DNA from: Actinokineospora enzanensis DSM 44649
GTDB taxonomy: Bacteria > Actinomycetota > Actinomycetes > Mycobacteriales > Pseudonocardiaceae
Length of the DNA stretch: 64,000 bases
Assembly (NCBI RefSeq): GCF_000374445.1
Contig: NZ_KB894406.1
Span: 186,001 to 250,000 of the forward strand
Direction: 5' to 3'
Below are positions 6,999 through 48,628 of the stretch, one piece after another. The translations under genes were made by a program, and so were the position numbers. The notes under the pieces were generated by a model. It had not been told where the DNA came from and ran no database searches. It saw only the letters and a list, made by a program, of their open reading frames with translations. The stretch's first letter is position 1. Each line of letters opens with the position of its first letter.

Positions 6999-7009
6999 CC
7001 AGGTGAAGG

Positions 7010-7603: not shown

Positions 7604-7689
7604 GGGTCGGCTCCTTCTGACGCGGGTGCTGAGGTCACCGACGATCCTTACAGGACCGATGATCGCGTCCGATGTGGACCCCTGATAGC

Positions 7690-7716: not shown

Positions 7717-7721
7717 GGGGA

Positions 7722-8471: not shown

Positions 8472-8600
8472 CGGGGTTCCTCTCGGAGTGGGACGCGGAC
8501 ATTCGGGACGGTACGGGTGAAGCTACCCAAGTCGATCACCCGGAGAAAGAACCTCTCGATACCACCGCGACCGTCCACAATCACACTCGCCGAGAAGCCG

Positions 8601-8629
8601 GGCCCCCGGCGCCACCGGCGCCGGGGGCC
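8601..8629. terminator. Hairpin terminator after the polyketide operon
   Basis: Perfect 13-bp inverted repeat (GGCCCCCGGCGCC) with a three-base loop. It lies immediately downstream of the last gene of the minus-strand operon (stop at 8635). Confidence 0.65.
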
Positions 8630-8634
8630 GCGAC

Positions 8635-9408
8635 TCAGCCCCGGGCGAACCCGTCCAGCTCCGCCGCCGTGTCGTCGGCCAGCCGGGCGCGGAGCTTGTC
8701 CGCCGCGGACTCGTCCGCGCCCTCGGCCAGCGTCGCCGTGCGGCGGATGGACAGGTCCACGCCGCCGTCCGGGCGGGCCGTCAGGCGGTACTCGCCGGTC
8801 AGCGACTCGACCCCCTCGTCCAGGTCCGCGATCCGCTTCACCACGATCTTCCGTTCCGGCAGCGACACCCGCCGCCACAGCGCGGTGTCCTCGGTCGACG
8901 CCAGCGCCCGCTCGAACAGCGTGGACGCGGGCCCCTCGAACGCGCGGGTGGCCGTCGCCTCCACGGTGTCGCGGCGCAGGCGGGCCAGGTTCTCGCCCAG
9001 CTGCTTGAGGTGCGCCAGCTGTCGCGGCACGTTGCGGTCCAGGTCGGGCAGCAGCTTGTCCAGGATCGCCGCCTTGTCCGCTGGCACGTCCAGCGAGTGC
9101 ACGACCCGGACCCGGGTCACCGCGCCCTCGGTGGTGAACGTCCACTCGCCGCGCATCCGGGTCAGCGGCGGCTTCGGGGTGACGTGCTGGAACACGATCC
9201 GCAGCGCCGCGCGGTCGAGCTCCCGGCTCACCTGCCAGCTGCGCACCCCGTCCCCGTCGAGCACGTACCGCTCGACCACGGACGCGCTGATCACCTCGGC
9301 GTGCAGGTGCGTCGGGAACCATTGCGGTGCCCGCTCGACGTCCGCGACCAGGTCGAACAGGTCCTCGGCTGGGGCGGCGACGGTGAGCTCGTGCGTGTTG
9401 TCTGTCAT
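8635..9408 (-). CDS. SRPBCC polyketide aromatase/cyclase
   Basis: The 257-residue protein has the START/SRPBCC fold of polyketide cyclases: MTDNTHELTVAAPAEDLFDLV, then ERAPQWFPTHLHAEV and WQVSRELDRAALRIVFQHV. A second, weaker copy begins near residue 150 (FEGPASTLFERALAS), which looks shortened compared with true didomain aromatases of about 315 residues. These enzymes hold the poly-beta-ketone chain and direct aldol cyclisation and dehydration in the cytoplasm. It is the last gene of the eight-gene minimal-PKS operon. A full didomain homologue is encoded at 24138-25085, so the two probably act on different rings. Confidence 0.85.
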   Translation of the reverse strand: MTDNTHELTVAAPAEDLFDLVADVERAPQWFPTHLHAEVISASVVERYVLDGDGVRSWQVSRELDRAALRIVFQHVTPKPPLTRMRGEWTFTTEGAVTRVRVVHSLDVPADKAAILDKLLPDLDRNVPRQLAHLKQLGENLARLRRDTVEATATRAFEGPASTLFERALASTEDTALWRRVSLPERKIVVKRIADLDEGVESLTGEYRLTARPDGGVDLSIRRTATLAEGADESAADKLRARLADDTAAELDGFARG

Positions 9409-9417
9409 CGGGGTCTC

Positions 9418-9473
9418 CGGCTCAGTGGAATCGGCTCGGTGTAATCGGCTCAGGGGGATCGGCTCAGTGGAAT
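9418..9473. repeat. Four tandem 14-bp repeats
   Basis: Four head-to-tail copies of CGGCTCAGTGGAAT; copies 1 and 4 are identical, copies 2 and 3 differ at two or three positions. The array fills the spacer between the cyclase start and the aldo/keto reductase stop, and the last copy supplies the reductase stop codon. Confidence 0.9.
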
Positions 9474-10477
9474 CGGGCGGCCGGACCCAGCGGGTCCGCG
9501 GTCAGGATCGGGTTGTCGCGCACCGCGGGCGCCAGCGCGACCTCCACGGCCTTGACCAGGTCGTCGTCCAGCACGGTGTCGACCGCGGCCAGGTTCGCGG
9601 CCAGCTGCTCCGGCCGGGACGCGCCCGCGATGGCCGAGGCGACCGCCGGGTTGCGCAGCACCCAGGCCAGCGCCAGCACCGGCAGTGTCAGCCCGGCCTC
9701 GGCGGCCAGCGGCACCAGCCGGTCGACCGCCGCCAGCACGATCGGGTCGCGGTAGTTCCACCGGTCGATGGACATCGCGCCGATCTTGAGCGAGCCGCGG
9801 CTGCCCTCCGGCGCGTCGCCGCCCGCCCGGTACTTGCCGGTCAGGATGCCGCCCGCCAGCGGCGACCAGGCGATCTGGCTGATGCCCAGCTCCTGCGAGG
9901 TGGGGATGACCTCGCCCTCGATCACCCGCCACAGCAGGTTGTACTGCGGCTGGTTGGACACCAGCGGGGTGCGCAGCTCGGCGGCGATCTTCGCGGCCTC
10001 GCGCAGTGCCGGGGCGGGCCACTCGGACACGCCGAAGTAGCGGACCTTGCCCGCGCGCACCAGGTCGGCGAAGGCCACCACGGTCTCCTCGACCGGTGTG
10101 TCCGGGTCGTAGCGGTGCGCCTGGTAGAGGTCGACGTAGTCGGTGCCGAGGCGGCGCAGCGAGCCGTCGATCGAGTCGAGGATGTGCTTGCGGGACAGCC
10201 TGCCCTGGTTGGGGTCGGGCTTCTTCGAGCGGCCGACCTTGGTGCACAGCACGATGTTCTCGCGCGGGTGCGCGGCCAGCGCCTCGCCGAGGAAGGTCTC
10301 GGCGGCGCCGTCGGCGTAGACGTCGGCGGTGTCGAAGGTGGTGATGCCCGCCTCGACCGCGGCGTCGATCATGCCGCGGGCGGCGTCCAGGTCCAGCTGG
10401 TCGCGGGCGGTGATGGAGTTGCCGTAGGCGAGCGCCGAGACCATCAGGCCGCCTGCGCCCAGTCGGGTGTACTTCAC
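9464..10477 (-). CDS. Aldo/keto reductase
   Basis: The 337-residue protein is an aldo/keto reductase of the potassium-channel beta-subunit-like branch. The catalytic tetrad is visible: Asp in TTFDTADVYADG, Tyr four residues later, Lys in LCTKVG and His in YQAHRYDP. The NADPH-binding C-terminal segment is IAGASRPEQLAANL. It would reduce a ketone or aldehyde, or a quinone-like group, during tailoring of the aromatic polyketide. It lies between the methyltransferase and the cyclase in the operon and is preceded by GGAGCAGCACCGTG. Confidence 0.9.
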   Translation of the reverse strand: MKYTRLGAGGLMVSALAYGNSITARDQLDLDAARGMIDAAVEAGITTFDTADVYADGAAETFLGEALAAHPRENIVLCTKVGRSKKPDPNQGRLSRKHILDSIDGSLRRLGTDYVDLYQAHRYDPDTPVEETVVAFADLVRAGKVRYFGVSEWPAPALREAAKIAAELRTPLVSNQPQYNLLWRVIEGEVIPTSQELGISQIAWSPLAGGILTGKYRAGGDAPEGSRGSLKIGAMSIDRWNYRDPIVLAAVDRLVPLAAEAGLTLPVLALAWVLRNPAVASAIAGASRPEQLAANLAAVDTVLDDDLVKAVEVALAPAVRDNPILTADPLGPAARFH

Positions 10478-10512
10478 GGTGCTGCTCCTGGGGTGATCAC
10501 GAGTCGAGCGAC

Positions 10513-11538
10513 TCAGGGGTTGGCGGCCCGGCGGGCCAGGACGACGTGCACGGGCAGCTCCCCGACCCGGTCCTCGGTCTCCACCTCGAACCCGGCGCGG
10601 GCGAACATCTCCCGGTAGGCGGCGAGCGGGTGCGCCTCCCCGCCCGCGGTGCCCGCGAGCATCATCAGCGACAGCCCGTGCGCGGCGTGCTCCCGCGCGG
10701 GCGGCAGCTCGCCGGTGGCGAACCCGGTCAGCACGACCCGGCCGCCCGGCGCGACGACGGCGGCGACCCGGCGCAGCAGCTCGACGCCGCGCTCGCGATC
10801 GAACATCGGCAGCAGGTTGGCCAGCACCACCAGGTCGTACGGGCCGCCGAGATCGGCGGTGAACGCGTCCCCGGCGACCGTGCGCACCCGGTGGGCGACA
10901 CCGGAACGTGCGGCCTGGGCGGTGACCGCGGGCAGCACGCTCGCCCAGTCCAGCGCCACGACCCGGGCGGCCGAGTGCGTCCGGGCGAACTCACAGCCGA
11001 ACAAGGCGTTGCCGCAGCCCAGGTCCAGCACGTCGAGCGCGTCCCGGCCCTCCGCCCAGTCCGCGGTGGTGGCGAGAAACTGCTTGCAGGTGGCCGCGGC
11101 CACGAAGGTCGAGTCGGCGGCGAAGTCCACCCAGTACGGCAGGTCCGGTTCGGTCAGTCCGGCGTGGGCGCCCGCGTGTCCATTCCGGACGGTGTCGGCG
11201 AGGTCCAGCATGGCCGACCACTCCCAGTCGGCGGCGACCAGCTTCGCCGCGCCGCCCGCGTACTGGGGGCTGGTGCTCACCAGCAGGGTCTCGGCGCCCT
11301 CGGGGGCGCTGTAGGTGACGCCGTCGGAGTCGAGAAGCCCTTGGGAAGCCATGGTTCCCAACAGGATCCGGGTTCCGCGCTCGTCGAGTCCCAGTTCGAC
11401 GGCCACCTTCTCCGGTGTGGTCGGGCCTGCGGCCAGCGCGTCGTAGATCCGCAGCCGGATCGCGGCCCGCAGCACGGCGGTCCGCTTGAACGCCTGCAAC
11501 GTCTCCAGCAGCGTCTGCCGGGTGATCGGGGCGGTCAT
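10513..11538 (-). CDS. SAM-dependent O/C-methyltransferase (Methyltransf_2 type)
   Basis: The true start is the ATG at 11538, overlapping the upstream stop (ATGA) and preceded by GAGAGGAG. The 341-residue product has an N-terminal winged-helix dimerisation domain (KRTAVLRAAIRLRIYDALAAG) and a Rossmann SAM site, VLDLGCGNALFGCEFA. Family members methylate hydroxyls or carbons of polyketides (for example in tetracycline, anthracycline and tetracenomycin pathways). There is a second methyltransferase of the same length and family at 31473. Position and substrate are not predictable from sequence. Confidence 0.9.
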   Translation of the reverse strand: MTAPITRQTLLETLQAFKRTAVLRAAIRLRIYDALAAGPTTPEKVAVELGLDERGTRILLGTMASQGLLDSDGVTYSAPEGAETLLVSTSPQYAGGAAKLVAADWEWSAMLDLADTVRNGHAGAHAGLTEPDLPYWVDFAADSTFVAAATCKQFLATTADWAEGRDALDVLDLGCGNALFGCEFARTHSAARVVALDWASVLPAVTAQAARSGVAHRVRTVAGDAFTADLGGPYDLVVLANLLPMFDRERGVELLRRVAAVVAPGGRVVLTGFATGELPPAREHAAHGLSLMMLAGTAGGEAHPLAAYREMFARAGFEVETEDRVGELPVHVVLARRAANP

Positions 11539-12794
11539 CAGGCACTCCTCTCGGCGGGTCGCTCGTCCGCGGTGAACAGGTCGGTCCGGACCCGGATGGC
11601 CCGGTTGCCGAAGGCGATCTTGTCCAACATCAGCCGGAACAGCGGGCTGCGGGACATCACCGACGCCAGCGCCGGGCGCACCACGGAGGACACCCGGCCG
11701 GTGGACAGCATCGCCTTGCTCTGGATGGTCTGGATCTTCAGCATCCGGTCGATATCGGGCTTGCGGACCCGCACGTACGCGTCCAGGTCGGCCGCGGTGA
11801 CGACGGCGTCGCCGGTGTTCTTTCCCAGCACCCCGACCAGGACCGGGTGCGCGGCGACCGCGTCCTGGATGGCCAGGTTGATGCCCTGGGCACCGATCGG
11901 GCTGAACGTGTGCGCGGCGTCGCCGACGAGCAGCAACCCGTCCCGGGCCCACTCCCGCGCGTTCGCCGCGTACACGTCCAGCAGCGTCAGGTCCCGGAAC
12001 GAGGTGATCTCCGCCGCGATCCGGGCCGCGTGCGTCGGCACGGCCGCGATCAGCCGCTGCTTCAGCTCGTCGAACCCGGACGCGGCCAGCTCCTTGTACG
12101 CGCCGTGCGGCAGGCACCAGCCCAGCTGCACCGCGCCCGACGACGCGTACGCCAGCACCGGGTTGCCGCCCGCGCGGAACACCCGCACGTCGGTCGGCAG
12201 CCCGTGGCTCCCGCTCAGCTTGAACCAGAGCACGTCCTGCGCGAACGCGTCCACCCGGCCCCCGTCGATCCCGGCGAGCACACGCACCTTGGAGCTGCGC
12301 CCGTCCGCACCGACCACACAGGACGCTCGGATCGTGTGCTCACCATCCTGTTCTCGGACGACCACACCACGAACAGCACTGTCCTCAGCGACCAGAGCGG
12401 TCACCTTGGCACCCTCGCGGTAGGTGAATCCGGGGTGATGGGCGCATTCGTCGAGCAGCGCCGACAGCACATGCGGCTGCGGGATGCTCAGCAGCCGGTT
12501 GTACGGGCCGGGCAGCCCGCGGTAGTCGGCATCGATCAGCCGCCTGCCGTTCTGCTCCAGCACGAACCGGTCGTGCGGGTGCCCGCCCCGGGCGAGGGCG
12601 GGCGCCAGCACGCCCAGGGCGTCGAGCAGGGCCTGGCCGCCCGGCTGCAGGATCTCGCCGCGGAACTCGCGGTCGAGCGAGCGGGACCGCTCCACCAGCA
12701 CCACGTCCAGCCCGGACCGGGCCAGCAGCAGTGCCAGGGTGGTCCCGGCGGGGCCTGCGCCGACGACGCAGACGTCGGTGGTGTGGTCGGCCAC
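11538..12794 (-). CDS. FAD-dependent aromatic hydroxylase (group A)
   Basis: I chose the GTG at 12794 because GGAAGGGG lies upstream and the flavin motif follows directly. The 418-residue protein has VVGAGPAGTTLALLLARSG (GxGxxG at residues 12-17), the GRS motif in VVGADGRSSKVR, and the second FAD motif GLLLVGDAAHTFSP near residue 300. These are the p-hydroxybenzoate-hydroxylase-type monooxygenases that insert oxygen using NAD(P)H and O2. It is placed between the amidotransferase and methyltransferase genes, so it likely hydroxylates the aromatic intermediate before methylation. Confidence 0.92.
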   Translation of the reverse strand: MADHTTDVCVVGAGPAGTTLALLLARSGLDVVLVERSRSLDREFRGEILQPGGQALLDALGVLAPALARGGHPHDRFVLEQNGRRLIDADYRGLPGPYNRLLSIPQPHVLSALLDECAHHPGFTYREGAKVTALVAEDSAVRGVVVREQDGEHTIRASCVVGADGRSSKVRVLAGIDGGRVDAFAQDVLWFKLSGSHGLPTDVRVFRAGGNPVLAYASSGAVQLGWCLPHGAYKELAASGFDELKQRLIAAVPTHAARIAAEITSFRDLTLLDVYAANAREWARDGLLLVGDAAHTFSPIGAQGINLAIQDAVAAHPVLVGVLGKNTGDAVVTAADLDAYVRVRKPDIDRMLKIQTIQSKAMLSTGRVSSVVRPALASVMSRSPLFRLMLDKIAFGNRAIRVRTDLFTADERPAERSA

Positions 12795-38067: not shown

Positions 38068-38568
38068 TCAGCCGCCAACACTCAACCGACGGGCAAACCC
38101 TCGCATTCGCCCCCGATCCTCCCCGAACACACTCTCCCACTCCTCATCCAACGAAAACCACCCCACAGGCTGCCCCTCCTCCCCCCGAACCTCCACCTCG
38201 GCAGAAACAACCGCCCCATAAACCAAACACAACGTAGCCGACAAATCCGCCCGATAAGACCGAACCGCAACCGCGGCAGGCACATCCGACAACTCGGCCG
38301 AAACCCCGGCCTCCTCGGCCAACTCGCGCACCGCGGCTGCCCGAGGCGTCTCCCCGATCTCCACCGTCCCCCCGGGCGCGACCCACCCCCGCCGGTGGTG
38401 CCGCACCAACAACACCCGCCGATAAGACGGATCCACCACCCAGACCTCGGCAGCGATCGGCTCCGTCAACACCGGCCGGGCCCTCAACCACGCCCGAGCG
38501 TCATCGAACTCCACCACGGCCAGCCCCGCATCGGCCACCGCCGCGTTCATGGTCACCTGGTCGATCAT
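38068..38568 (-). CDS. Nudix hydrolase
   Basis: The 166-residue protein has an intact Nudix box, from GGTVEIGETPRAAAVRELAE to EAGV, following VLLVRHHRRGWVAPG. It would hydrolyse a nucleoside diphosphate linked to another moiety, with Mg2+. The C-terminal region PVGWFSLDEEWESVFGEDR is the usual substrate-facing helix. It stands alone between the MFS gene and the truncated LysE gene and shows no clear link to either pathway. Confidence 0.9.
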   Translation of the reverse strand: MIDQVTMNAAVADAGLAVVEFDDARAWLRARPVLTEPIAAEVWVVDPSYRRVLLVRHHRRGWVAPGGTVEIGETPRAAAVRELAEEAGVSAELSDVPAAVAVRSYRADLSATLCLVYGAVVSAEVEVRGEEGQPVGWFSLDEEWESVFGEDRGRMRGFARRLSVGG

Positions 38569-38627
38569 TCGGCCATGGTAGACACCGATCAGGAGCGACG
38601 GGCGCGATCGCGTGGGACGCTCTGTCG

Positions 38628-38774
38628 GTGCCCATTGATCCGCACCTGTTCGCAGCGTTCGTCCTGACCGCGGTGGTGGCCATGCTCGTCCCCGGCCCGG
38701 ACATGCTCTTCGTCCTCGGCTGCGGGATCCGCGGCGGCGCCCGCGCCGGTCTGCTTGCCACCGCGGGCCGGTCG
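38628..38774 (+). pseudogene. Truncated LysE-family exporter gene
   Basis: A start codon is followed by MPIDPHLFAAFVLTAVVAML, then VPGPDMLFVLGCGIRGGARAGLLATAG, the first membrane helix and loop of LysE/RhtB amino-acid exporters. The similarity stops after about 48 residues and the sequence runs directly into tandem 16-bp repeats. The remaining 150 or so residues of a normal LysE protein are missing, so this is a broken gene. Confidence 0.75.
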
Positions 38775-38777
38775 CAC

Positions 38778-38825
38778 AGTGGTCGGTCGACAAAGTGGTC
38801 GGTCGACGCAGTGGTCAGTCGACCG
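38778..38825. repeat. Three tandem 16-bp repeats
   Basis: Copies of AGTGGTCGGTCGACAA: 16-base units with changes only at the last bases and one internal A. The array begins where the LysE fragment ends and the third copy overlaps the stop codon of the DUF1330 gene. Confidence 0.9.
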
Positions 38826-39132
38826 GGTGGGCGAGCCCGCCGTCGATGAACAGGATGCGCCGGATCGGCGGCTCGCTCCGGGCGGCCAGCGCGGCGCGGT
38901 AGTCCGGGGAGTCGTACCAGGCGCGGGCGTCGGCGAGGCTGGGGAACTCGATGATGACGATGCGGTGGTCGTCCGGCCACTGCCCCTCGACGGCCACCGG
39001 GGTCTGGCCGCGGGCCAGGTAGCGGCCGCCGTGCGCGGCGATGGCGGCCGCCGAGGCGGCGCGGTACCGGCGGATCTCGTCGTCGTCCTGGTACGGGGAT
39101 TCGGCGATCACGTAGGCGGGCACAACCCCCAT
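38815..39132 (-). CDS. DUF1330 family protein
   Basis: A 105-residue ferredoxin-like protein: PAYVIAESPYQDDDEIRRYR, then GGRYLARGQTPVAVEGQW and IVIIEFPSLADARAWYDSPDY, all typical of DUF1330, a small dimeric fold of unclear enzymatic function. Start ATG at 39132. It is divergent from the AlaX-like gene, with a 60-base spacer. Confidence 0.88.
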   Translation of the reverse strand: MGVVPAYVIAESPYQDDDEIRRYRAASAAAIAAHGGRYLARGQTPVAVEGQWPDDHRIVIIEFPSLADARAWYDSPDYRAALAARSEPPIRRILFIDGGLAHPVD

Positions 39133-39192
39133 TGTGGCACGACTGTGGCACGGCTCGCGGGCGGCCGGGAGCGGGGCGTAGGGTGTACCCAC

Positions 39193-40092
39193 GTGAACGT
39201 TGTGGACTCCGGCGAACTGGCCGTCACCACCGTGACCTACCCCGCGGGTTCGCTGCGGGAGAAGGCGTCCGTGCTGACCACCGTGCGCGAACCGGACCGG
39301 CTGTTGGTCTTCACCGACCGCACCCCGTTCCACCCGCTCGACCCGTTGTGGCCCGACCAGCCCGCCGACCACGGTGAACTCCGCGTCGGCGACCACGCCT
39401 TCCCGGTCCGCGACACCCTCACCGCCGCCCGCCGCGACGACGGTCCACTGGTGGTGGATGACGACATCGCCGCCCGCCGCGACGAACCCGGCGTGCTCTT
39501 CGCCGTCGCCCACGTCCTCGACCCCGAGGCCGCACCGCACCTGACCCCCGGCACGAGCGTGGACCTCGTGGTCGACGCGGAGCGACGGAACCGGCTCAGT
39601 GCCGCGCACACCGCGTGCCATCTCCTGGCGTACGCGCTCAACCAGGTCACCCATGGCTTGTGGCGCAAGGAAGTCCCCACCGACTCACGCGGCCACTACG
39701 ACCTGGACGCCGCCACCTGCGTGCTCACCCGTCACGACGTGGACGGCAGTCTCGACCACTACCGGCTCGGCAAGTCCCTGCGCAAGAAGGGATTCGACAC
39801 CGCCGCGTTCCTGGACCGTCTGCCGGATGTGATCGGCGAGGTCAACGCGGTGCTCGCGGGCTGGATCGCGGCCGACGTGGCGGTGCGCGTCGAGGTCACC
39901 GGCCCCGCCCTCACCGACCGCAGGCAGTGGGTCTGCGAGACCCCCGGCGGCGTCGCCACCATGCCCTGCGGCGGCACCCACGTGCACCACCTGGCCGAGA
40001 TCGACTCGATGACCGCCACGGCCACCCACGACGCGGACTCCGGCATCCTGGAGATCCGCAACCGCGTCGTGGTGGCCGCGACGGTCTACTAG
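39193..40092 (+). CDS. AlaX-type alanyl-tRNA editing protein
   Basis: GTG start; 299 residues. It has the two zinc-binding motifs of the AlaRS editing domain: HTACHLL (His139, His143) and CGGTHVHHL (Cys259, His263), with the second in the usual TPGGVATMPCGGTH context. AlaX proteins hydrolyse mischarged Ser-, Gly- or analogue-tRNA(Ala) in trans. The N-terminal 125 residues with VTTVTYPAGSLREK and DRTPFHPLDP match the AlaX N-domain. The stop overlaps the stop of the convergent ATP-grasp gene by two bases. Its placement beside a putative amino-acid-derived metabolite operon suggests protection from a product analogue (inference). Confidence 0.88.
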   Translation: MNVVDSGELAVTTVTYPAGSLREKASVLTTVREPDRLLVFTDRTPFHPLDPLWPDQPADHGELRVGDHAFPVRDTLTAARRDDGPLVVDDDIAARRDEPGVLFAVAHVLDPEAAPHLTPGTSVDLVVDAERRNRLSAAHTACHLLAYALNQVTHGLWRKEVPTDSRGHYDLDAATCVLTRHDVDGSLDHYRLGKSLRKKGFDTAAFLDRLPDVIGEVNAVLAGWIAADVAVRVEVTGPALTDRRQWVCETPGGVATMPCGGTHVHHLAEIDSMTATATHDADSGILEIRNRVVVAATVY

Positions 40093-41309
40093 CGGTACAG
40101 CCCGGTGAGTTCCATGTCCCGCAGCGTCTGGTAGTCCCGTTCCAGCTCCGCCTGGTCGTCCGTGCACAGGTACACCGTGCCCGGACACGTGGCCATGTCG
40201 ATCGTCTTCGTCAGCGGCGCGCCCTCCGCGTGGTTCGCCACCAGACCGGCGAACGACGGCAGTTCGCGCACCCGGTCCCACCCGTCCGCGTCCGGCATCC
40301 GCCCAGTGGCAGGGGAGATGAGGTTGACACACCGCAGCAGGTTCTTGAGCTGGTACGGCGCGTCCGTCTCGGCGACGAAGCTCTCCGGGTCGGCGAGGGC
40401 GAACGCCAGGGTGTTCACCTGGTCGGTGCCGACGCAGCGGCTGAGCAGCTCCGGCACCTGGCCGCCGCCAAGGCGCGCGCCGGTCTCGATCAGGAACGGA
40501 CCGTCGTCGGTCAGCATGATCTCCGTGTGCGCGGCGCCGTGCGAGATTCCCAGTGCGTCCAGCACATCGCGCGCGTACCCGACCACCTCGGCCACGCCGA
40601 ACGCGTCCAATGGCAGCAGGTCCTCGTAGTCGTACACGGCCTGACCGTCGACCTGGCGCTTGTGGTAGCGCCACACCTCGATCAGCCGGTGTGTGCCCGC
40701 CCAGCTCACCGTGTTCAGGTAGTACTCGGAGCCGCGCAGGAACTGTTGCGCCAGCACGGTGTCGTTGCGGCGGCCGTAACGGTCCACCGACGCCATGATC
40801 CGGTCGTGCGCGGCCACGACCTCCTCGGCCGTGGTGCACGTGATCACGTTGTCCGTGCCCGCGCTCAGCACCGGCTTCAGCACCACCGGCCGGATCCCGT
40901 TGTCCCGCACCCACGCCACGGTGTCCGCCGACGACGCGGAGCGGAAGTCGCGCGCCGCGGCCAGACCGGCGGCGCGGATCGTCTCCTGCATGGCCGCCTT
41001 GTCGCGGCGGGCGACGGAGTGGTCGATCGCGTTGCCCGGCAGGCCGAGCGCGGCCGCGAGCCGGTCGGCCAGCAGCACACCGGACTCGGCGGCGGCGACC
41101 ACCGTGGTCACGCCGAGTTCGCGCATCGCCGCCGCCGTCGCCGCGATGTCGCCGGTGTGCGCCAGCTCGACCGCGAAGTCCGCCGGGCGGTACGCCAGCC
41201 GCGTGTCCGGGAACTCCGACCGGACGTGGATGAACGGCACCCCGCGCAGCCGCAGTGCGGCGGGCAGCAGCCTGCCCGCCCCGTACGCGTCCACTATGGC
41301 GCAGGTCAC
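40089..41309 (-). CDS. ATP-grasp ligase
   Basis: The GTG at 41309 overlaps the upstream stop (GTGA); 406 residues. ATP-grasp elements are VVLKPVLSAGTDNV (the binding loop Lys), VLAQQFLRGSEYYLNTVSW and the metal-binding LIETGARLGGG. The N-terminal Rossmann-like part is AIVDAYGAGRLLPAALRL. Related carboxylate-amine ligases join amino acids or keto acids to amines via an acyl phosphate. It is the last gene of the six-gene minus-strand set, next to its EamA exporter. Substrates unknown. Confidence 0.9.
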   Translation of the reverse strand: MTCAIVDAYGAGRLLPAALRLRGVPFIHVRSEFPDTRLAYRPADFAVELAHTGDIAATAAAMRELGVTTVVAAAESGVLLADRLAAALGLPGNAIDHSVARRDKAAMQETIRAAGLAAARDFRSASSADTVAWVRDNGIRPVVLKPVLSAGTDNVITCTTAEEVVAAHDRIMASVDRYGRRNDTVLAQQFLRGSEYYLNTVSWAGTHRLIEVWRYHKRQVDGQAVYDYEDLLPLDAFGVAEVVGYARDVLDALGISHGAAHTEIMLTDDGPFLIETGARLGGGQVPELLSRCVGTDQVNTLAFALADPESFVAETDAPYQLKNLLRCVNLISPATGRMPDADGWDRVRELPSFAGLVANHAEGAPLTKTIDMATCPGTVYLCTDDQAELERDYQTLRDMELTGLYR

Positions 41310-42247
41310 TGTGAAACCTCCGACTTCTCCGACCCGGACCCGGCCGGTCGCCGGTCCGCTCGATCCCGGACCAGCGCTCCCACCGCCACCAGCACGACCA
41401 CGCCGATGATGCCGACGAGGGTGAAGGCGGAGAAGCGCAGCCTGCCGTCGGCCAGCTGCATGGTGAACGCCATCAGCGGCGACAGCGCGATCACCAGCGA
41501 GGTGGTGATCGGTTCGGTGTGCTTGATCCCGATCTGCAGCACGTAGATCGGCGTCGCGACACCGATCACCGCCACCACCACACCGGGCAGCAGTGCGGCA
41601 CCGAGATCGGGGTGGCGCTCCAGCCCGAACAGCACCCAGGCGAGCGCGCTCATCAGGAAGAACCTGGTGGCCAGCACGGTTCCCGGGGCGCACCCGGCGT
41701 CGCTGAGCCGCTTCATGTAGATGATGTTCACCGAGGACCCGACCGCGCAGGCCACCGTCAGCACGAGCCCGATGACCGCGTCCGACACGGTGATCCCGGC
41801 CAGCCCGCTGCGCCCGCTGAACGACACCCACACCAGGCCCGCGAGCAGGCCGCAGATGCCGATCGACACCGCGACCTCGACGCCGAGCACCCTGCTGTCC
41901 TTGCGCAGCAGCGGACCGGCCAGCACCGCGATCACCGGGCCGAGCGCGAGGCCGAGCACGTTGACGATCGCCGGTTCCAGGTAGGCCAGCGCGTACAGGG
42001 TGGCCAGCCAGGTCACCGCGGTGGTGATGTTGATCGCCACCAGGTCCCTGCGGTGCGCGTGCAGCTCGCCGGGCCCGGCGGAGCGGACCCGGCGACCCTG
42101 CACGGCCAGGAAGAACAGCATGGTCAGCGTGAACGACACGGCCGCGATCCCGGCCGGGCTCACCGACTCGAACTGGTTGCCCGCGTAGACGTCCATCGCC
42201 GCGGTGAGCACGGCGTAGCCGAGCAGCGGCACCAGCCCGCGCCGCAT
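41306..42247 (-). CDS. EamA/DMT-family exporter
   Basis: The 313-residue protein has ten predicted membrane segments in two EamA repeats: LVPLLGYAVLTAAMDVYAGN at the start, ALAYLEPAIVNVLGLALGPV in the first repeat and HTEPITTSLVIALSPLMAF in the second. DMT transporters export amino acids and small metallophores. It lies between the LYS9-like gene and the ATP-grasp gene and is translationally coupled to the latter, so it probably exports the operon's product. A longer start at an upstream GTG is possible. Confidence 0.88.
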   Translation of the reverse strand: MRRGLVPLLGYAVLTAAMDVYAGNQFESVSPAGIAAVSFTLTMLFFLAVQGRRVRSAGPGELHAHRRDLVAINITTAVTWLATLYALAYLEPAIVNVLGLALGPVIAVLAGPLLRKDSRVLGVEVAVSIGICGLLAGLVWVSFSGRSGLAGITVSDAVIGLVLTVACAVGSSVNIIYMKRLSDAGCAPGTVLATRFFLMSALAWVLFGLERHPDLGAALLPGVVVAVIGVATPIYVLQIGIKHTEPITTSLVIALSPLMAFTMQLADGRLRFSAFTLVGIIGVVVLVAVGALVRDRADRRPAGSGSEKSEVSQ

Positions 42248-42390
42248 CGAACCCGCGCGGGTACCCCCACCTTGCACGATGCGTCCCCCATGAGGTCTGT
42301 TCGGCACGGCGTCGCTATCCGTTCCCCCGAACGGTTTCCGCGCGCCGACTGTCGTGAACGACCGCCAGGGTACGCACTCGTGCGCGGCGG

Positions 42391-43536
42391 TCAGTCGCCA
42401 GCGTAGCCCGTCTCGATGCCCCACGTGGCCAACTTGCCCAGCCAGCGGTCGACCGCGGCCGGTTCGTCGGCCGCCTGGTGCAGTCCCGGCGCGACGTTCC
42501 CGCCGGTGACCTCCAGGATGCCCAGGGCGAGCGGCACCGACACCAGCCGCGGGGTGGCGGCCTCGGTCGCGGTGCCGACGGCGTCGAGAACGTACTCACC
42601 ACTCCAGGTTCTGCCGTCCTCGGTGCGTACGTCGAGGCTTACCGCCATGACCACCCGATCGTGGTCGTCGGTCGTGGTCGGGTGCCGCTCGGCGAGTTCC
42701 GCCGCCAGCGCGGTGATCCGGTCCGCGTCGGCGGTCACCAGCTCGGCGAACACCTCCTTCCACGCCTGGCTCCAGCCGTCCAAACGCATCGTTCCGCGCA
42801 CGAACGTCTCGATCGTCCAGTTGGTCGGAAAGTGGTAGGTCGCCACGAACGGGACACTGTCCCGGTTCGGGTACACCTCGAACGTCTCGTCGCCGATCCG
42901 TTGCGCGCGAACGGCTTCCCACGGCCGCGCGACCTCGACCTCGGCCCCGTCGTCGATCATCCGCGCCGGGCTCAGCAGCGCCGTCAGCACCCCGCGCGGC
43001 GCCCAGCTGAACCGGTAGCGGAAGTCGTTGGGCACGGCGGGATTGCTGCCGCAGTACGAGGTGAACCGGACGGTCGCACGGCCGTCCCCGACGAACTCGC
43101 CCGCCTTGCGCACCAGCTCGTGCGCCAACAGGTGGTCGATACCGGGGTCCAGCCCGATCTCGGTCAGCACGACCAGCCCGCGCGCGGCCGCCGCGTCGGT
43201 CTGCTCGGCGATCCCCGGGCTGAGGTAGCTGGAGCACGCGAAGTGCGCGTCGTGCTCGATCGCCAGGCGCAGCAACGCCGGGTGCTCGGTGGCGGGCAGC
43301 ATGGACACCACGACGTCGCCGGCGCGCAGCTCGGCGGCGAGCTCCGCGTGGCCGAACGTCCGCGTCTCGGCCTGTCCGGACAGTCCCAGCTCGGCCAGCC
43401 GCCTGTCCGCCTTGGCCGCGGTGCGCCCCCACAGCAGCGTCGTGGCCGCCGCGCAGACCAGGCCGAGCCCGCTGCCGGTGGACATGCCGGTGCCGATCCA
43501 GTGCACGCGGCCGCTCGGGGTCACCAGGTCAGCCAT
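42391..43536 (-). CDS. Saccharopine dehydrogenase-like oxidoreductase (LYS9-type)
   Basis: The 381-residue protein, preceded by GGAAGGAGACC, has an N-terminal Rossmann nucleotide site VHWIGTGMSTGSGLGLVCAA and the saccharopine reductase layout: VVVSMLPATEHPALLRLAIE, TEIGLDPGIDHLLAHELVRK and SYCGSNPAVPNDFRYRFSW. In lysine metabolism such enzymes interconvert saccharopine with aminoadipate semialdehyde plus glutamate; homologues also make opine-like secondary amines. Its ATG lies inside the 3' end of the LYS1-like gene (8-base overlap), indicating joint use. Confidence 0.9.
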   Translation of the reverse strand: MADLVTPSGRVHWIGTGMSTGSGLGLVCAAATTLLWGRTAAKADRRLAELGLSGQAETRTFGHAELAAELRAGDVVVSMLPATEHPALLRLAIEHDAHFACSSYLSPGIAEQTDAAAARGLVVLTEIGLDPGIDHLLAHELVRKAGEFVGDGRATVRFTSYCGSNPAVPNDFRYRFSWAPRGVLTALLSPARMIDDGAEVEVARPWEAVRAQRIGDETFEVYPNRDSVPFVATYHFPTNWTIETFVRGTMRLDGWSQAWKEVFAELVTADADRITALAAELAERHPTTTDDHDRVVMAVSLDVRTEDGRTWSGEYVLDAVGTATEAATPRLVSVPLALGILEVTGGNVAPGLHQAADEPAAVDRWLGKLATWGIETGYAGD

Positions 43537-44587
43537 GGAGGTCTCCTTCCGCGCCAAGGCGGGCGATCGCGTCGTCGAACCGGGCGCGGGCGCGGTCCCA
43601 CACCGGGCCGCCCGCGGTGAGGCCGGTCAGGTGCGGCAGCAGCCCGGCGGAGAAGGCCGTGCTGGACTCGCGGGGCAGCAGCGACGGCAGGTTGTCGATG
43701 GCCAGCACGTCCAGCACCGGACTGCCCGCGTGCACCGTGCGCGCGGGGGAGTCCCAGGTCGTGGTCTTGTCGTTGATCGGCAACCGGTTCAGGTCCGAGG
43801 TGACGTCGCAGGTCACGTCGGAGACGGTGCGCAGCACGCGGCCCGGCGCGGTCGTGTCGGCCGCGGTGAGGAACGGCGTGCCGGGCTCGTTCGCGAACAC
43901 GGTGTTGACCAGGATGTCGTGGCCCAGCAGGGCTTCCCGGTCCAGCGCCCGGGTCTCGGCCAGGTCCCACTCGGTGGTCGGCACGCCCGCCACCGCCAAC
44001 GCCTCCACGGCGCCCCGGCCGGACCGGCCCAGCGCGCCGACCACCAGCGCCCGTTCGGCGGCCGGGGTGGCGCGCAGCCGGGCGTCCAGGTCTTCCCGAC
44101 TGCCGGAGCGCAGCGGGGCGAGCAGCTCGTTGCGGTGGTGGAGGACGGCGAGCGCGGCGCCCACGTAGCCCGCCCAGAAGCCGAACGCGACCACCCGGCG
44201 GCCGTCGTCGTCGACCAGCTCCTCCAGGTCGAGCAGGGTGCCGCCGCCCCAGGTGAGCCTGCGCAGCAGGTCGGGCCCGTCGACCTGGCCCTTGAAAGCG
44301 TGGCCGAAGAAGATGTGCCGGTGGGTCAGCGCCCGCGCGGCCGAGGAGGGCTCCTTGAGCCCGAGCACGAACACCTCCGGCGGCGCGTCCGGCCAGGTGT
44401 CCCCAGGCACGACCCGGCAGCCCGCGGCCGCGTACTCCTCGACCGGGAACGCCCGCTGTCCGGCCTCCTCGACCATCACCGCGAACCCCGCCTCGACCAG
44501 GCGCGCGGCGTCCGCGGGTACCAGTGGTGTGCGCTCCTCGTGCGGCGCGACCTCGCGGCGCAGCCACAACCCCGTCCTGCTCGACAT
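43529..44587 (-). CDS. Saccharopine dehydrogenase, lysine-forming type (LYS1-like)
   Basis: The 352-residue protein begins MSSRTGLWLRREVAPHEERT, the AlaDh/PNT N-terminal domain, then GLKEPSSAARALTHRHIFFG and HAFKGQVDG, which hold the substrate-site Lys and His of fungal LYS1 enzymes. The NAD site region is ALVVGALGRSGRGAVEALA. LYS1 interconverts lysine plus 2-oxoglutarate with saccharopine. Directly followed by the LYS9-like gene with an eight-base overlap. The spacer upstream contains a 24-bp tandem repeat. Substrates may differ from lysine here. Confidence 0.9.
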   Translation of the reverse strand: MSSRTGLWLRREVAPHEERTPLVPADAARLVEAGFAVMVEEAGQRAFPVEEYAAAGCRVVPGDTWPDAPPEVFVLGLKEPSSAARALTHRHIFFGHAFKGQVDGPDLLRRLTWGGGTLLDLEELVDDDGRRVVAFGFWAGYVGAALAVLHHRNELLAPLRSGSREDLDARLRATPAAERALVVGALGRSGRGAVEALAVAGVPTTEWDLAETRALDREALLGHDILVNTVFANEPGTPFLTAADTTAPGRVLRTVSDVTCDVTSDLNRLPINDKTTTWDSPARTVHAGSPVLDVLAIDNLPSLLPRESSTAFSAGLLPHLTGLTAGGPVWDRARARFDDAIARLGAEGDLHG

Positions 44588-44634
44588 CTGTTCTGCTCGT
44601 CCCCTTGTCCGTGCTCGCTGGCTGGGTGAATGGC

Positions 44635-44697
44635 CGGGTGGGTGGGTTGGAAGATCAGCGGGTGGGTGGGTTGGAAGATCAGTGGGTGGGTCAGTGG
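44635..44697. repeat. Tandem 24-bp repeat
   Basis: Two exact copies of a 24-base unit (44635-44658 and 44659-44682; both contain GGTTGGAAGATCAG) and a partial third. The array lies between the ThDP gene stop and the LYS1-like start, which are on the same strand. Confidence 0.9.
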
Positions 44698-46415
44698 ATG
44701 GGGCGGGTGCGCTGGGCCCCGGACAGCGCGGCCTGCCAGCTGGCGACCGGCGGCGGCACCTCGATGTGGCTGGGCACCGCGACGTGGATGACCGACGGCC
44801 CCTCGGCCGTCGCCGCCTGCTTGGCCAGCACCGCGAACTCGGCGGCGGTGTGCGCGCGGGCGCCGGTGACGCCCATGCCCGCGGCCAGCAGCACCGGGTC
44901 CAGCGGGCCGGGGTCGACGGCGAAGTAGCGGCCGCCCGCGTACAGGTGCTGGATCATCTTGATCCAGCCCATCGAGGTGTTGTCCAGCACCACGTAGGTG
45001 ACCGGCAGCCGCAGCCGGGCCGCGGTCTCCCACTCGCCCACGGCCATGGCCACGCTGTTCTCCGTGGTCAGGCACAGCACGCGGGAGCCGGGGTGGCCGA
45101 CCGCGAGCGCGATGGACGCCGGGATGGCGAAGCCCATCGGGCCGTGGCCGCGCGGGATGACCACCCGCCAGCCGTCGCCGGGGCACTCCCAGAAGCTGGA
45201 CAGGTACGGCGTCGGCGTGCCCGCGTCCGCGGCGATCCAGGTGTCGCGGCCGAACGCCTCGCCGAGCGCCCGGACGACCTCGCGCGGGTGCACCACGCCC
45301 TCGTCGAGCACCGGCGTGTCGGCGTCGACGTGGCTCGCCCACACCGCGCGGGCGGCCGCGATCTCGGCGGACCTGGCCGCGCGGACCTCCTCGGCCGCGG
45401 CCGGGATGGCGGCCACGACCTGGGCCAACACCGCCTTCGCGTCGCCGACCATGGCGACCCCGCGCGGGTAGTTGTGCCCGGCCCGGCCCTCGTCGGCCTC
45501 GATGTGCGCCACCTTGACCGAGCCGTCCCGCGGCGGGGCGGTGAAGCCGAGCGTGTCGGTGGCGTTGGCCCGGGTGCCCACGAACAGCACCGCGTCCGCC
45601 TCGGCGAGCCGGGCGTTGGCGTAGTCGCGGGCGCCGTTGGCGCCGATCACGCCCAGCGCCAGCGGGTGCGCCTCGTCCAGCGCGCCCTTGCCGTGGATGG
45701 TCGTGGCGACCGGGACGGCCCCGCGCTCGGCCAGCGCGCGCAGCTCCGGCCAGGCGCCGGACAGGTGCGCGCCGCCGCCCGCGACGATCACCGGGTGCGC
45801 GGCGTCGGCGAGCATGTGCGCGGCGATCCGGACCGCGTCCAGCCTGCCCGCAGGCCGGTCGGTGGCCACCTCGGCGCGGGTGAGCGTGCCCTGCGGCGGC
45901 GCGTCGTCGAGCTCGGCCTCCAGCACGTCCTCCGGGAAGATCAACGCCACCGGGCCGGGACGGCCGGTGGTGGCCGCCCGGATCGCCGCCTCGACGGCAG
46001 CCGGGATGTCCCGCGGGTCGGTGACCGTGCGCCGCCACTTGGTGCAGGCGGCGAACAGCGCGTCCTGGTCCATCTCGCTGATCGGCGCGGTGCCCGCGCT
46101 GCGGGTGTTGTTGTCGGTGGCCAGCGCCACCAGCGGGATGCTCGACGTCAGCGCCTCGGCCAGACCGCTGGCCAGGTAGACCGCGCCCGCCCCGCTGGGC
46201 GCCTCGCACACGCCCAGCCGCCCGGTGGCGCGGGAGAACGCGTCGGCCATGAACCCGGCGTGCCGCTCGTCCCTGGCCAGCACGTGCCGGATCTCGTCGG
46301 CGCGCCGCCGCAGCACGTCGTAGAGGGCGATGCTGGTGTCCCCCGGGAACCCGAAGACCGTGTCCACGCCGCGCCGCGTCAACGACTCGACCAGCAGATC
46401 CGCTCCGTTGCCCAT
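44691..46415 (-). CDS. ThDP-dependent enzyme, acetolactate-synthase-like, with altered cofactor motif
   Basis: The 574-residue protein has the three-domain ThDP layout: Pyr domain with the activating Glu50 in LARDERHAGFMADAF, a central nucleotide-like domain (HPVIVAGGGAHLSG), and the PP domain from about residue 380. The usual GDG...NN metal/diphosphate motif is changed to Thr-Glu-Asn (451-453) and Asp-Asn (478-479) in CLTTENSVAMAVGEWETAA and VVLDNTSMGW. It may still bind ThDP with unusual chemistry or be non-canonical. It sits between the methyltransferase and LYS1-like genes. Confidence 0.85.
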   Translation of the reverse strand: MGNGADLLVESLTRRGVDTVFGFPGDTSIALYDVLRRRADEIRHVLARDERHAGFMADAFSRATGRLGVCEAPSGAGAVYLASGLAEALTSSIPLVALATDNNTRSAGTAPISEMDQDALFAACTKWRRTVTDPRDIPAAVEAAIRAATTGRPGPVALIFPEDVLEAELDDAPPQGTLTRAEVATDRPAGRLDAVRIAAHMLADAAHPVIVAGGGAHLSGAWPELRALAERGAVPVATTIHGKGALDEAHPLALGVIGANGARDYANARLAEADAVLFVGTRANATDTLGFTAPPRDGSVKVAHIEADEGRAGHNYPRGVAMVGDAKAVLAQVVAAIPAAAEEVRAARSAEIAAARAVWASHVDADTPVLDEGVVHPREVVRALGEAFGRDTWIAADAGTPTPYLSSFWECPGDGWRVVIPRGHGPMGFAIPASIALAVGHPGSRVLCLTTENSVAMAVGEWETAARLRLPVTYVVLDNTSMGWIKMIQHLYAGGRYFAVDPGPLDPVLLAAGMGVTGARAHTAAEFAVLAKQAATAEGPSVIHVAVPSHIEVPPPVASWQAALSGAQRTRPIH

Positions 46416-46426
46416 GCCCTGCCTTC

Positions 46427-46468
46427 CTGTTCCTGCCGCTCTGTTCCTGCTGTCCTGTTCCTGCGGCG
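46427..46468. repeat. Three tandem 14-bp repeats
   Basis: Three units of CTGTTCCTGC plus four variable bases. On the minus strand each unit reads GCAGGAACAG, giving three AGGA cores just upstream of the ThDP gene's ATG, so the array may add ribosome-binding cores. Confidence 0.9.
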
Positions 46469-46478
46469 GGGTGCTCGG

Positions 46479-47174
46479 TCAGCGGGTGAGGTGCGCGGTC
46501 ACGATCGACCGCACGCGCTCGCCGGAGATCGGTCGGTGGTAGCGGAACTCGCCGGGCTCGGCCTTGTCGAAACCGGCGGCGACGGCCTGGTCGGCGATGT
46601 AGTCGGCGGACAACCAGTGGAAACCGTCCACGCCGGGCGCCTGCTGGACGGGCGATCCGTCGTTGGGCGCGTCATTCGACGCGACAAGGCAGGCCAGGCC
46701 GTCGGCGCCCGGCTTCAGCCAGGCGCGGATCCGGGACAGCACCGGGACGAGACCGGCGGCCGGGTCGTTGAGGTGGCCGAGCACGCCGTCGATGTAGGCG
46801 ACGGTCCAGTGCCTGCCCGGTTCCCACTGGTAGATGTCGGCGCACTCGGCCTGGACACCCTTCCGCCTGGCCAGCTCCACCGCCTCCGGCATGGCGTCGA
46901 TGGCCAGCACCCGGTAGCCGCGGTCGACCAGCTCGGCCTCCACGGCGGCGTTCCCGCAGCCCAGGCTGAGCAGCTCGCCGCCGTCGCGGTCCAGCTCGGC
47001 GGCCAGCCGGTCGGCCATCCAGGTGCGGTACTCCAGGCTGTAGGTCGACGGCGTCACCGAGTCCCCGCGGCTGCCGCCGTCCTCCCAGACGTGGAACAGG
47101 CTGGCGCTGTCGGTGTTCTTGTCGAGGTAGAAGCGGACGAGGTCGTCCTGGTTCCTCGCAGGCGTGTGGAACAT
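46479..47174 (-). CDS. Class I SAM-dependent methyltransferase
   Basis: The ATG at 47174 is chosen because GGGGGA lies five bases upstream; an in-frame ATG at 47186 is the alternative. The 231-residue protein has LLSLGCGNAAVEAELVDRG as the SAM site, then VLAIDAMPEAVELARRKG and VAYIDGVLGHLNDPAAGL. It resembles small-molecule methyltransferases of the Methyltransf_11/25 type. It is the first gene of the minus-strand amino-acid-derivative operon and would methylate the intermediate or product. Confidence 0.88.
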   Translation of the reverse strand: MFHTPARNQDDLVRFYLDKNTDSASLFHVWEDGGSRGDSVTPSTYSLEYRTWMADRLAAELDRDGGELLSLGCGNAAVEAELVDRGYRVLAIDAMPEAVELARRKGVQAECADIYQWEPGRHWTVAYIDGVLGHLNDPAAGLVPVLSRIRAWLKPGADGLACLVASNDAPNDGSPVQQAPGVDGFHWLSADYIADQAVAAGFDKAEPGEFRYHRPISGERVRSIVTAHLTR

Positions 47175-48166
47175 CGTTTCCCCCATCGTCGACAGAGTCG
47201 GCGCGCCGGTGGGCGACACCGCTGAATTCGGCCGCGATAACGCATGTGCCATTCTTCGTGCAATACCCACCCCACGCACGGGCAGGCCGAAACACCGACA
47301 GCGCACCGTCGGATACGAAGGTCGTTCCCCTTTGTGTCGGGTGCCTTCCCCCAGTTCCCCGTGAACACAACACAGTCCCCGCGAGTCCGGGGCCGGTGTC
47401 CCGCCCGGATCGCGGAACCGATTGTCATCAGGTCCGGCTATGGGTCGCAACCGCCCGTTCGAGTGAACAGGCCGCGGTCGCTGTGTAGCGTGACCGTCAT
47501 CACGCCGAGGTATGCGCGCGGTATACCGGGTCGTCGATGGAAAACGTGTGACCGGCGCGTTAGACGATCATATGCGGCAGATGTCGACATCCCTCGAATC
47601 GAGCACGAAACGGGTGAACGTCAAATACGCGAACGTCGAGATGTATCAACTCCTGGCTTAACTCGACGCCCGGCTGAACGCCAGTCCCACGCCGAAGCCA
47701 TCGGCACCCCGCCCATGCGACCCTGTCGCGGGCTGTCCCGTCCTGTTGAGCTCTTGACGACCATCGCGGTTTCCATACCGTGAATCGGGGGCGTCCGCAA
47801 TGCCACGCCCGCGCGGGCCGAGAGGGGCCATGGGGTAGACCGCCATCCATGTCGTGTCTTGATCATTCCGGCGTTTGCGGACTTGGCACGAAAGACGATC
47901 CGATGAGCGTCGAATAGTCTACCGTCGATATTTGCAATTCGATAAGTCGCATGCGGATTGTTTTCGGCGATTCGGTCCCGTCGCCGTGCTGCCGCGTTGT
48001 CGTCAGGTGGAGAGCCCGAACCGGCAAACGGTTCGCGGGTGGATGGTTGGCTCGGCAGGGGATGATCGGATGGTCGATCCGGCCCTTCTGCCCCCTCGGC
48101 GCATACGCCAGGATGTCGGTGATCATGAAGCGCGGTCGGCGAGACCGCAGGGTGGAGGAGGAATCC
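47175..48166. other. Gene-free spacer of nearly 1 kb
   Basis: Divergent promoter region of the methyltransferase (minus) and SnoaL-like (plus) genes. I see no convincing coding sequence or RNA gene. It contains an 18-base dyad, GCGTGA-N6-TCACGC (47488-47505), and an AT-richer stretch around 47915-47960. Base composition looks less GC-rich than the flanks, which suggests accumulated or unselected DNA. Confidence 0.5.
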
Positions 48167-48628
48167 GTGGCCGATGCTGGGGGAGCCGCCGTGGCGGACC
48201 GGTTGGATGTCATCGAGACGTGTACGCGGGTGGTGTGGCATACCGATCAGCGGGAGTGGGAGCGGCTCGGGGAGGTGTTCGCGGACCGGGTTTCCCTGGA
48301 CTACACCAGTCTCAACGGGGGTGAGCCCGTCACGCTGGCGCCGGAGGTGATCATCGGGGCCTGGCGGGACGCGCTCGGCGGGTATGACTCGACGCACCAT
48401 CTGCTCACCAACCATCTCGTGACCGTGGCCGGTGACGAGGCCGTGTGCACCGCCGCTTTCCTTGCCACGCACCGGCTCGGGTCGGCGCTCGGTGGTTCGT
48501 TGTGGACACTCGGGGGCACGTACCGGTTCTCGCTCACGCGGTCCGACCGGTGGCGGATCGACGGCATGGTGATGACCGCGGTCTGGGGCGACGGCAACCG
48601 CGACCTGCCCGCGCAAGCGGCGAAATGA
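48167..48628 (+). CDS. SnoaL-like (NTF2-fold) protein
   Basis: The GTG at 48167 follows GGAGGAGGAATCC and gives 153 residues. The fold signature is CTRVVWHTDQREWERLGEVF, then DRVSLDYTSLNGGEPV and DSTHHLLTNHLVTVAGDEAV, with His residues in the cavity as in SnoaL_4 dimers. Its stop overlaps an ATG of the hydrolase gene frame (ATGA), so both form an operon. It may act on a polyketide intermediate or be a steroid-isomerase-like protein. Confidence 0.82.
   Translation: MADAGGAAVADRLDVIETCTRVVWHTDQREWERLGEVFADRVSLDYTSLNGGEPVTLAPEVIIGAWRDALGGYDSTHHLLTNHLVTVAGDEAVCTAAFLATHRLGSALGGSLWTLGGTYRFSLTRSDRWRIDGMVMTAVWGDGNRDLPAQAAK

Follow-up and report, generated by a model that had tools for sequence, protein, structure and literature searches.

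Gene organization of the locus

We analyzed a 64,000-nucleotide stretch of the genome of Actinokineospora enzanensis DSM 44649 (contig NZ_KB894406.1, positions 186,001 to 250,000; this whole stretch is called the window below), and found six closely spaced minus-strand genes, treated here as an operon, facing one convergent gene on the plus strand. Families were assigned to the proteins with Pfam and NCBIfam profiles as follows.

46479..47174, minus strand: class I S-adenosylmethionine-dependent methyltransferase, operon gene 1, 231 aa (Methyltransf_23, 48.3 bits)
44691..46415, minus strand: thiamine diphosphate (ThDP)-dependent enzyme of the acetolactate-synthase superfamily, 574 aa (three TPP_enzyme domains, N, M and C; Pfam)
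43529..44587, minus strand: LYS1-like saccharopine dehydrogenase, L-lysine-forming type, 352 aa (AlaDh_PNT_N, 80.6 bits; phmmer, 3ugk)
42391..43536, minus strand: LYS9-like saccharopine reductase, L-glutamate-forming type, 381 aa (Sacchrp_dh_C, 122.8 bits, and Sacchrp_dh_NADP; phmmer, 1e5l)
41306..42277, minus strand: predicted EamA-family exporter, 323 aa, GTG start after GGGGGA (EamA, 48.3 bits, scanned from 42283)
40089..41309, minus strand: ATP-grasp L-amino acid ligase-type enzyme, 406 aa (PRK07206, 376.8 bits, cut-off 302)
39193..40092, plus strand: predicted AlaX-type trans-editing protein, 299 aa, convergent (NF040865, 48.2 bits; motifs; PDB 2e1b)

The LYS1 and LYS9 genes overlap by 8 bases (43529-43536) and the EamA and ATP-grasp genes by 4 bases (41306-41309), while the AlaX stop codon (40090-40092) and the ATP-grasp stop codon (40089-40091) have two bases in common. 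The first-pass annotation of this DNA had described six minus-strand genes in this order with two overlapping junctions, and a convergent AlaX gene sharing two bases of its stop with that of the last operon gene; frames, strands and coordinates bear out both descriptions. The remaining gaps measure 63 bp (methyltransferase to ThDP enzyme), 103 bp (ThDP enzyme to LYS1) and 113 bp (LYS9 to EamA, with the GTG at 42277 as the EamA start). This spacing, together with the overlaps, makes a single transcript plausible. A sigma-70 consensus scan of 38500-48400 returned no promoter-like site. The six operon frames and the AlaX frame are free of internal stops, with a G+C content at third codon positions of 0.93-0.99. 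Neither Pfam nor NCBIfam detected carrier, condensation or ketosynthase domains in the operon proteins. The AlphaFold model of the methyltransferase was poor (pLDDT, the model confidence score, 45.7).

Conservation of the six-gene set

We scanned a collection holding one genome per species (84,980 species) with short LYS1 peptide patterns, which reach close relatives only. The scan gave 136 relatives, the best 80 of which were kept; the scan may have skipped records of the window's own genome, and some of the 80 loci stop at contig ends. The results showed that Streptomyces poonensis (L006) carries all six genes, with order and strand unchanged and with short gaps between them. The six proteins of the two organisms share 64-71% amino acid identity (66% for the methyltransferase), with nonsynonymous divergence (dN) of 0.22-0.28 and dN/dS ratios of 0.29-0.42. 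Since this arrangement recurs in S. poonensis, the grouping is not due to chance, and the co-occurrence of the six families that the first-pass annotation saw in one genome holds in a second organism with matched divergence.

In a blastn comparison of the two regions, similarity covered only the six genes and one further gene beyond AlaX:

38815..39132, minus strand: DUF1330 protein, beyond AlaX (PF07045, 97 bits)

With tblastn, a distant (33%) aldo/keto-reductase match to the S. poonensis region was added elsewhere in the window. The two DUF1330 proteins are 54% identical (dN 0.43, dN/dS 0.64) and thus diverge unlike the six. The S. poonensis homologue lies past the 3' end of the operon in the opposite orientation relative to the window, where AlaX is placed between DUF1330 and the operon. 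DUF1330 is a possible, not proven, operon member.

A LYS9 match was present in 74 of the 80 LYS1 loci (3 of them partial), always on the same strand and directly downstream of LYS1. The full set, with methyltransferase, ThDP enzyme, EamA and ATP-grasp genes besides this pair, was found in 1/80 loci, that of S. poonensis. None of these four families was found near LYS1 in the other 79 loci, 73 of which have LYS9, and AlaX was matched in 0/80. For the first-pass annotation, which tied the saccharopine genes to the other four, this cuts both ways: the LYS1-LYS9 pair alone is widespread (73/79), which counts against it, and the full six-gene set is conserved once, which counts for it.

The ThDP protein is similarly sparse. 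It matched 8/297 genomes of the window's family (E 1e-120), 1/394 genomes of its class (the window's own; 1e-150), 2/392 genomes of the S. poonensis genus (S. poonensis among them; 1e-150) and 2/250 genomes of the Salinispora family (1e-140). A plasmid search with it gave 1600 records, all below 60% identity, the ten listed lying at 37.8-38.4%. Around eight ThDP places (about 20 kb each), no match to the other operon proteins or AlaX was found at E 1e-5. The places read were seven of the nine non-own places in the family and one in genome G870; those in G021 and G1134/G1306 and the second place in G283 lie outside this reading. None of the papers listed by full-text literature searches describes this six-gene set, in agreement with the first-pass annotation, which knew of no pathway with exactly these genes; the families are known individually, and their combination appears to be undescribed. 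The operon is real, rare, co-occurring and biosynthetic-looking.

The saccharopine enzymes LYS1 and LYS9

Both a LYS1-type and a LYS9-type protein are present, encoded side by side. The first match of LYS1 among solved structures was 3ugk, saccharopine dehydrogenase [NAD+, L-lysine-forming] (phmmer, E 4e-64), which we take to be yeast Lys1; that of LYS9 was 1e5l, saccharopine reductase (phmmer, E 6e-36). Judged by sequence, both proteins are closely related to the fungal saccharopine enzymes. LYS1 is homologous over nearly its full length, and a Lys and a His, at positions that we assume to be the catalytic residues of yeast Lys1, are kept in the operon protein as in all 9/9 bacterial sequences aligned. 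LYS9 is homologous over residues 42-260, with Pfam domains over the rest, and the two genes are adjacent. Unlike the fungal enzyme, the operon LYS9 is bacterial and shorter (381 versus 450 aa), and unlike the fungal pair, the operon pair is linked to a ThDP enzyme, a ligase and an exporter. The motif SYCGSNP occurs in both operon LYS9 proteins, and SYCGG(V/I)P in the other five bacterial LYS9 proteins aligned; the variant may hint at an altered LYS9 specificity.

Trees were built for 22 (LYS1) and 20 (LYS9) of the 82 available loci. The window and S. poonensis copies joined each other in the LYS1 tree (support 100/99) and in the LYS9 tree (100/100). A second, distinct LYS1-LYS9 pair was found in the window's own genome (L113, G000:C60), the LYS1 of which groups with Streptomyces copies (97/91). 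Because of long branches and unsettled LYS9 bootstrap values, the position of this second pair is unsure. It lies at 6720-12305 of that contig with genes for an EamA protein, a PEP-mutase/isocitrate-lyase-family protein and an APH-type kinase, and this set, which combines LYS1-LYS9 with an exporter and an enzyme that may act on C-C bonds, is possibly another undescribed-looking small cluster of the same genome. In the genome of S. poonensis, no LYS1 besides the operon copy was found.

The common Streptomyces LYS1-LYS9 pair has a gene clustered with GTP cyclohydrolase II nearby in 78/81 loci (family named from one member), and a DAO-type oxidase gene was matched at 53/79 of the other LYS1 loci. 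In the Streptomyces loci L007-L085 the pair lies in a conserved block, which in L007 includes genes for GTP cyclohydrolase II, a PTPS-family protein, a glycosyltransferase and an LPG-synthase-type membrane protein.

The ThDP-dependent enzyme

The AlphaFold model of the ThDP protein (pLDDT 74.8) was compared with solved structures by Foldseek. The best matches were acetohydroxyacid synthase (AHAS, 6lpi, E 3e-42) and BbmA (8x3x, E 1e-41; record title 'ThDP-dependent HKA synthase'), and benzaldehyde lyase was also among them; by sequence, the protein matched 1upa at E 3e-35. It is thus like AHAS, BbmA, benzaldehyde lyase and carboxyethylarginine synthase in fold, and differs from the ThDP carboligases in its identity of 22-30% (in the Foldseek list shown), the missing acceptor Arg and the replacement of GDG by TEN. 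The protein scored below the cut-off in each of the 25 models shown of the 52 matched (TIGR00118, 333.4 versus 538.35), and alignment to AHAS I revealed no Arg at the position that we take to be that of the acceptor-binding Arg. Because of these scores and the missing Arg, we rejected an acetolactate synthase for valine and isoleucine. At the GDG cofactor motif, TEN occurs in the two operon ThDP proteins, TEG in three relatives of 57-61% identity and ADG in the four relatives of 46-49% identity aligned (L098, L099, L101, L102).

After S. poonensis, the closest ThDP relatives in the genomes searched are those of loci L096, L097 and L112 (57-61%), with L101 at 46-48%. Each of the first three ThDP genes adjoins a DAO-type oxidase gene, and a related major facilitator superfamily (MFS) symporter gene is close in L097, L112 and L101, the L096 match being weaker and about 7 kb off. 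One L096 neighbour passes the cut-off for piperideine-6-carboxylate (P6C) dehydrogenase (NF050084, 791.9 versus 730) and another that for 2-oxoadipate dioxygenase/decarboxylase, the HglS type (NF050083, 611.5 versus 600), so that positions 5196-12308 of this locus hold a DAO-type oxidase and a divergent ThDP enzyme beside these two. At L112 the HglS-type match is weaker and divided between two frames; at L097 and L101 neither a P6C dehydrogenase nor an HglS-type match was found. The DAO-ThDP gene pair of these four actinomycete loci resembles the operon in its related ThDP enzyme, and differs from it in that the 20 kb read for each gave no match to LYS1, LYS9, ATP-grasp, EamA, methyltransferase or AlaX. 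L099 has another setting, with hydantoinase A/B, M20 peptidase, luciferase-like monooxygenase and GntR regulator genes, and the gene lengths at L098, L100 and L102 resemble this layout.

The ATP-grasp ligase and the EamA exporter

The ligase matched an L-amino acid ligase of known structure (PDB 30vh, E 2e-67) and passes the cut-off of the L-amino acid ligase subfamily PRK07206. It is like the ligases of dapdiamide- and bacilysin-type clusters in this membership and in its score of 210 bits against the model of dapdiamide A synthase, and unlike them in failing the equivalog cut-offs by far (DdaF, 210.1 versus 840; alanine-anticapsin ligase BacD, 26.8 versus 850); the upstream enzymes of those clusters are presumably also unlike those of the operon. 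No other close ligase copy was found in the window's own genome (next best, 29% identity).

Matches at E 1e-70 were present in 21/199 genomes of the S. poonensis genus, S. poonensis included. We read the neighbourhoods of eight such Streptomyces ligases, excluding S. poonensis, and found that an EamA relative (42% identical) overlaps the ligase gene in 2/8 (L150 and L151, by our own gene calls); in the four besides L144, L145, L150 and L151, no EamA relative was found. In L150 the two genes come after one for a cysteine-synthase-type PALP protein and one for a YggS-type protein; L151 shares this layout by sequence match. This row of PALP, YggS-type, EamA and ATP-grasp genes in two Streptomyces (L150, 5605-9504, and L151) is possibly an NRPS-free (nonribosomal peptide synthetase-free) dipeptide cluster. 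In L144 the ligase gene has a PALP gene as its neighbour, and the locus also includes genes for MutE, AMP-binding and acyl-CoA dehydrogenase proteins; L145 resembles it by sequence match. That EamA and a related ligase recur in one or more further types of small cluster fits a make-and-export unit.

The AlaX-type protein

The profile match of the convergent protein was weak (AlaXM equivalog NF040865, 48.2 versus a cut-off of 300), and no Pfam family was assigned to it at E 1e-3. It matched PDB 2e1b at E 9e-5 and contains HTACH (HTxCH) and CGGTH, corresponding to the HxxxH and CxxxH that we take to be the defining metal-site motifs of AlaX. Three relatives within the family keep CGGTH and HTxC, and two of the three keep the second His (Glu in L120).

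AlaX was matched in 4/297 genomes of the window's family at E 1e-10, its own included, and in only the window's own among 20 genomes, the rest being 15 of its genus, S. poonensis, G268, G283 and G870. No match was found in the S. poonensis genome at E 1e-3, and we therefore rejected AlaX as an obligate part of the operon. The first-pass annotation had suggested that it clears alanine-like analogues from tRNA; AlaX as a needed partner is unproven, the gene not being conserved with the operon in S. poonensis or at the LYS1 loci. Two of the relatives (L118 and L120) lie in or beside NRPS genes according to Pfam, and L119 was judged by its matching gene layout only; a role of AlaX in secondary metabolism is plausible given these three settings. 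One of the AlaX-type genes at L118 (9233-10021) and L120 (9303-10181) occurs with a lysine/ornithine monooxygenase gene and one with TauD-type oxygenase genes. Full-text literature searches retrieved no paper joining AlaX with 'biosynthetic gene cluster'. AlaX is linked to these six genes in a single case, and the gene would be a candidate lead to self-protection.

Flanking genes and repeats

Two repeats lie in the operon gaps:

44635..44688, strand not applicable: 24-nt tandem repeat, two copies, in the gap between the ThDP enzyme and LYS1 genes
46418..46467, strand not applicable: three imperfect repeats at 14-nt spacing, in the gap between the methyltransferase and ThDP enzyme genes

Upstream of the operon, about 1 kb (47250-48249) has a lower G+C content (0.60-0.63) and is free of called genes up to 48191. 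The flanking frames scanned encode LuxR-, MarR- and TetR-type regulators and MFS transporters, as well as secondary-metabolism proteins, namely SARP-type regulators, an acyltransferase domain, an O-methyltransferase and an EryCIII-like glycosyltransferase.

Proposed pathway and alternative explanations

From the gene content, the matched divergence of the six co-occurring genes, the family memberships and the conserved LYS1 residues, we propose that the operon produces a small amino-acid conjugate from lysine without NRPS or polyketide synthase (PKS) enzymes and exports it, with a probability of about 0.6 for this class of system. The second, distinct LYS1-LYS9 pair of the window's own genome also speaks for this reading. 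This product class is likely; the chemistry is hypothetical, and we infer the substrates, direction, order of steps and product. The LYS1-type enzyme would join lysine, or a close analogue, with 2-oxoglutarate to form saccharopine, which the LYS9-type enzyme would oxidise to aminoadipate semialdehyde and glutamate, the semialdehyde closing to P6C. The aldehyde or cyclic imine would receive an acyl anion from the ThDP enzyme, which may instead decarboxylate a derived 2-oxo acid. The methyltransferase may cap a hydroxyl, amine or carboxyl, the ligase would form an amide with a second amino acid, and EamA would export the product.

The proposed chemistry of LYS1-LYS9 and the P6C and 2-oxoadipate gene context of L096 both point to lysine-derived C6 intermediates. 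The proposed mechanism draws mainly on these two separate contexts, which comprise few loci and do not fix the reaction. The lysine-to-P6C direction is tentative, a little short of an even chance, and a true carboligation by the ThDP enzyme is somewhat doubtful. The most novel form of the proposal is a new template-free class of natural-product pathway in which fungal-type saccharopine enzymes replace a pyridoxal phosphate (PLP)-dependent aminotransferase in supplying the lysine-derived semialdehyde or cyclic imine, and the ThDP enzyme with GDG changed to TEN adds a carbon unit before ligation and export; this we consider distinctly doubtful. The first-pass annotation had named an opine- or dipeptide-like product, which may hold; in our view LYS1-LYS9 more probably interconvert amine and aldehyde than leave an opine in the product.

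Several points weigh against the lysine-derived conjugate or its details. The two full operons known here, those of the window and S. poonensis, are a small sample. The 103- and 113-bp gaps may leave room for internal promoters. With TEN for GDG, even the activity of the ThDP protein is putative. Among its three nearest relatives, a P6C dehydrogenase is found at 1/3 loci and an HglS-type match at 2/3, one of these frame-split, and none of these partners was found at L098, L099, L100 or L102 (47-49%, hydantoinase-type layout). The catabolic-looking neighbourhoods of the relatives would suit a carboligase no better than a decarboxylase or a lyase. In the LYS9 tree, unlike the LYS1 tree, the second copy of the window's genome adjoins the operon pair (94/89). 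The LYS1 of the S. poonensis operon, the one copy found in that genome, could also serve general metabolism there.

Among the alternatives, the saccharopine enzymes may run in reverse, which we regard as unlikely. The ThDP enzyme would produce an aldehyde by decarboxylating a 2-oxo acid, and LYS9 followed by LYS1 would act as a PLP-free transaminase, turning the aldehyde into a primary amine through a saccharopine-like glutamate adduct, so that the ligase would use a new diamino compound. A catabolic 2-oxo-acid decarboxylase would be expected to have neighbours such as those of the ThDP relatives, which lie next to DAO-type oxidase genes and in several cases also to an MFS symporter or LysR gene. 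This direction also agrees with the reversibility of the fungal pair: according to the review PMC9854754, both enzymes are reversible and, acting together, transfer glutamate's amino group to C-6 of aminoadipate semialdehyde. The P6C dehydrogenase and HglS-type genes of L096, however, suggest lysine-derived C6 intermediates rather than a new aldehyde.

An aminopolycarboxylate (opine-type) metallophore is quite improbable; its product would retain a saccharopine-like secondary amine, bind metal by chelation and leave the cell through EamA. Pseudopaline-type operons combine opine-type reductases with an EamA exporter, an outline like that of this operon, but the scheme has no place for the ThDP enzyme and the ligase, and no metal importer family was seen among the flanking frames scanned. 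Staphylopine- and pseudopaline-type operons are defined by nicotianamine-synthase-like and staphylopine-dehydrogenase families; neither is among the listed Pfam and NCBIfam hits of the six proteins, and a staphylopine-type metallophore was rejected on this ground.

Ordinary lysine catabolism or nitrogen salvage, which the 73/79 LYS1 loci with LYS9 and without the other operon genes, the frequent DAO-type oxidase (53/79) and the lack of a second LYS1 in S. poonensis would favour, is very improbable and was rejected, as Pfam found no P6C or aminoadipate-semialdehyde dehydrogenase in the operon, tblastn with the L096 P6C dehydrogenase (E 1e-15) gave no match in the window, a ligase and an exporter are misplaced in such a role, and the LYS1 and LYS9 of the operon each pair with their S. 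poonensis counterpart in the trees.

Implications

If the proposed lysine-derived conjugate is correct, a saccharopine enzyme pair would have been recruited for bacterial biosynthesis, and a ThDP enzyme whose metal-binding motif is altered would act on a lysine-derived aldehyde or imine. Such clusters lack NRPS and PKS domains and could therefore escape detection rules that rely on them.

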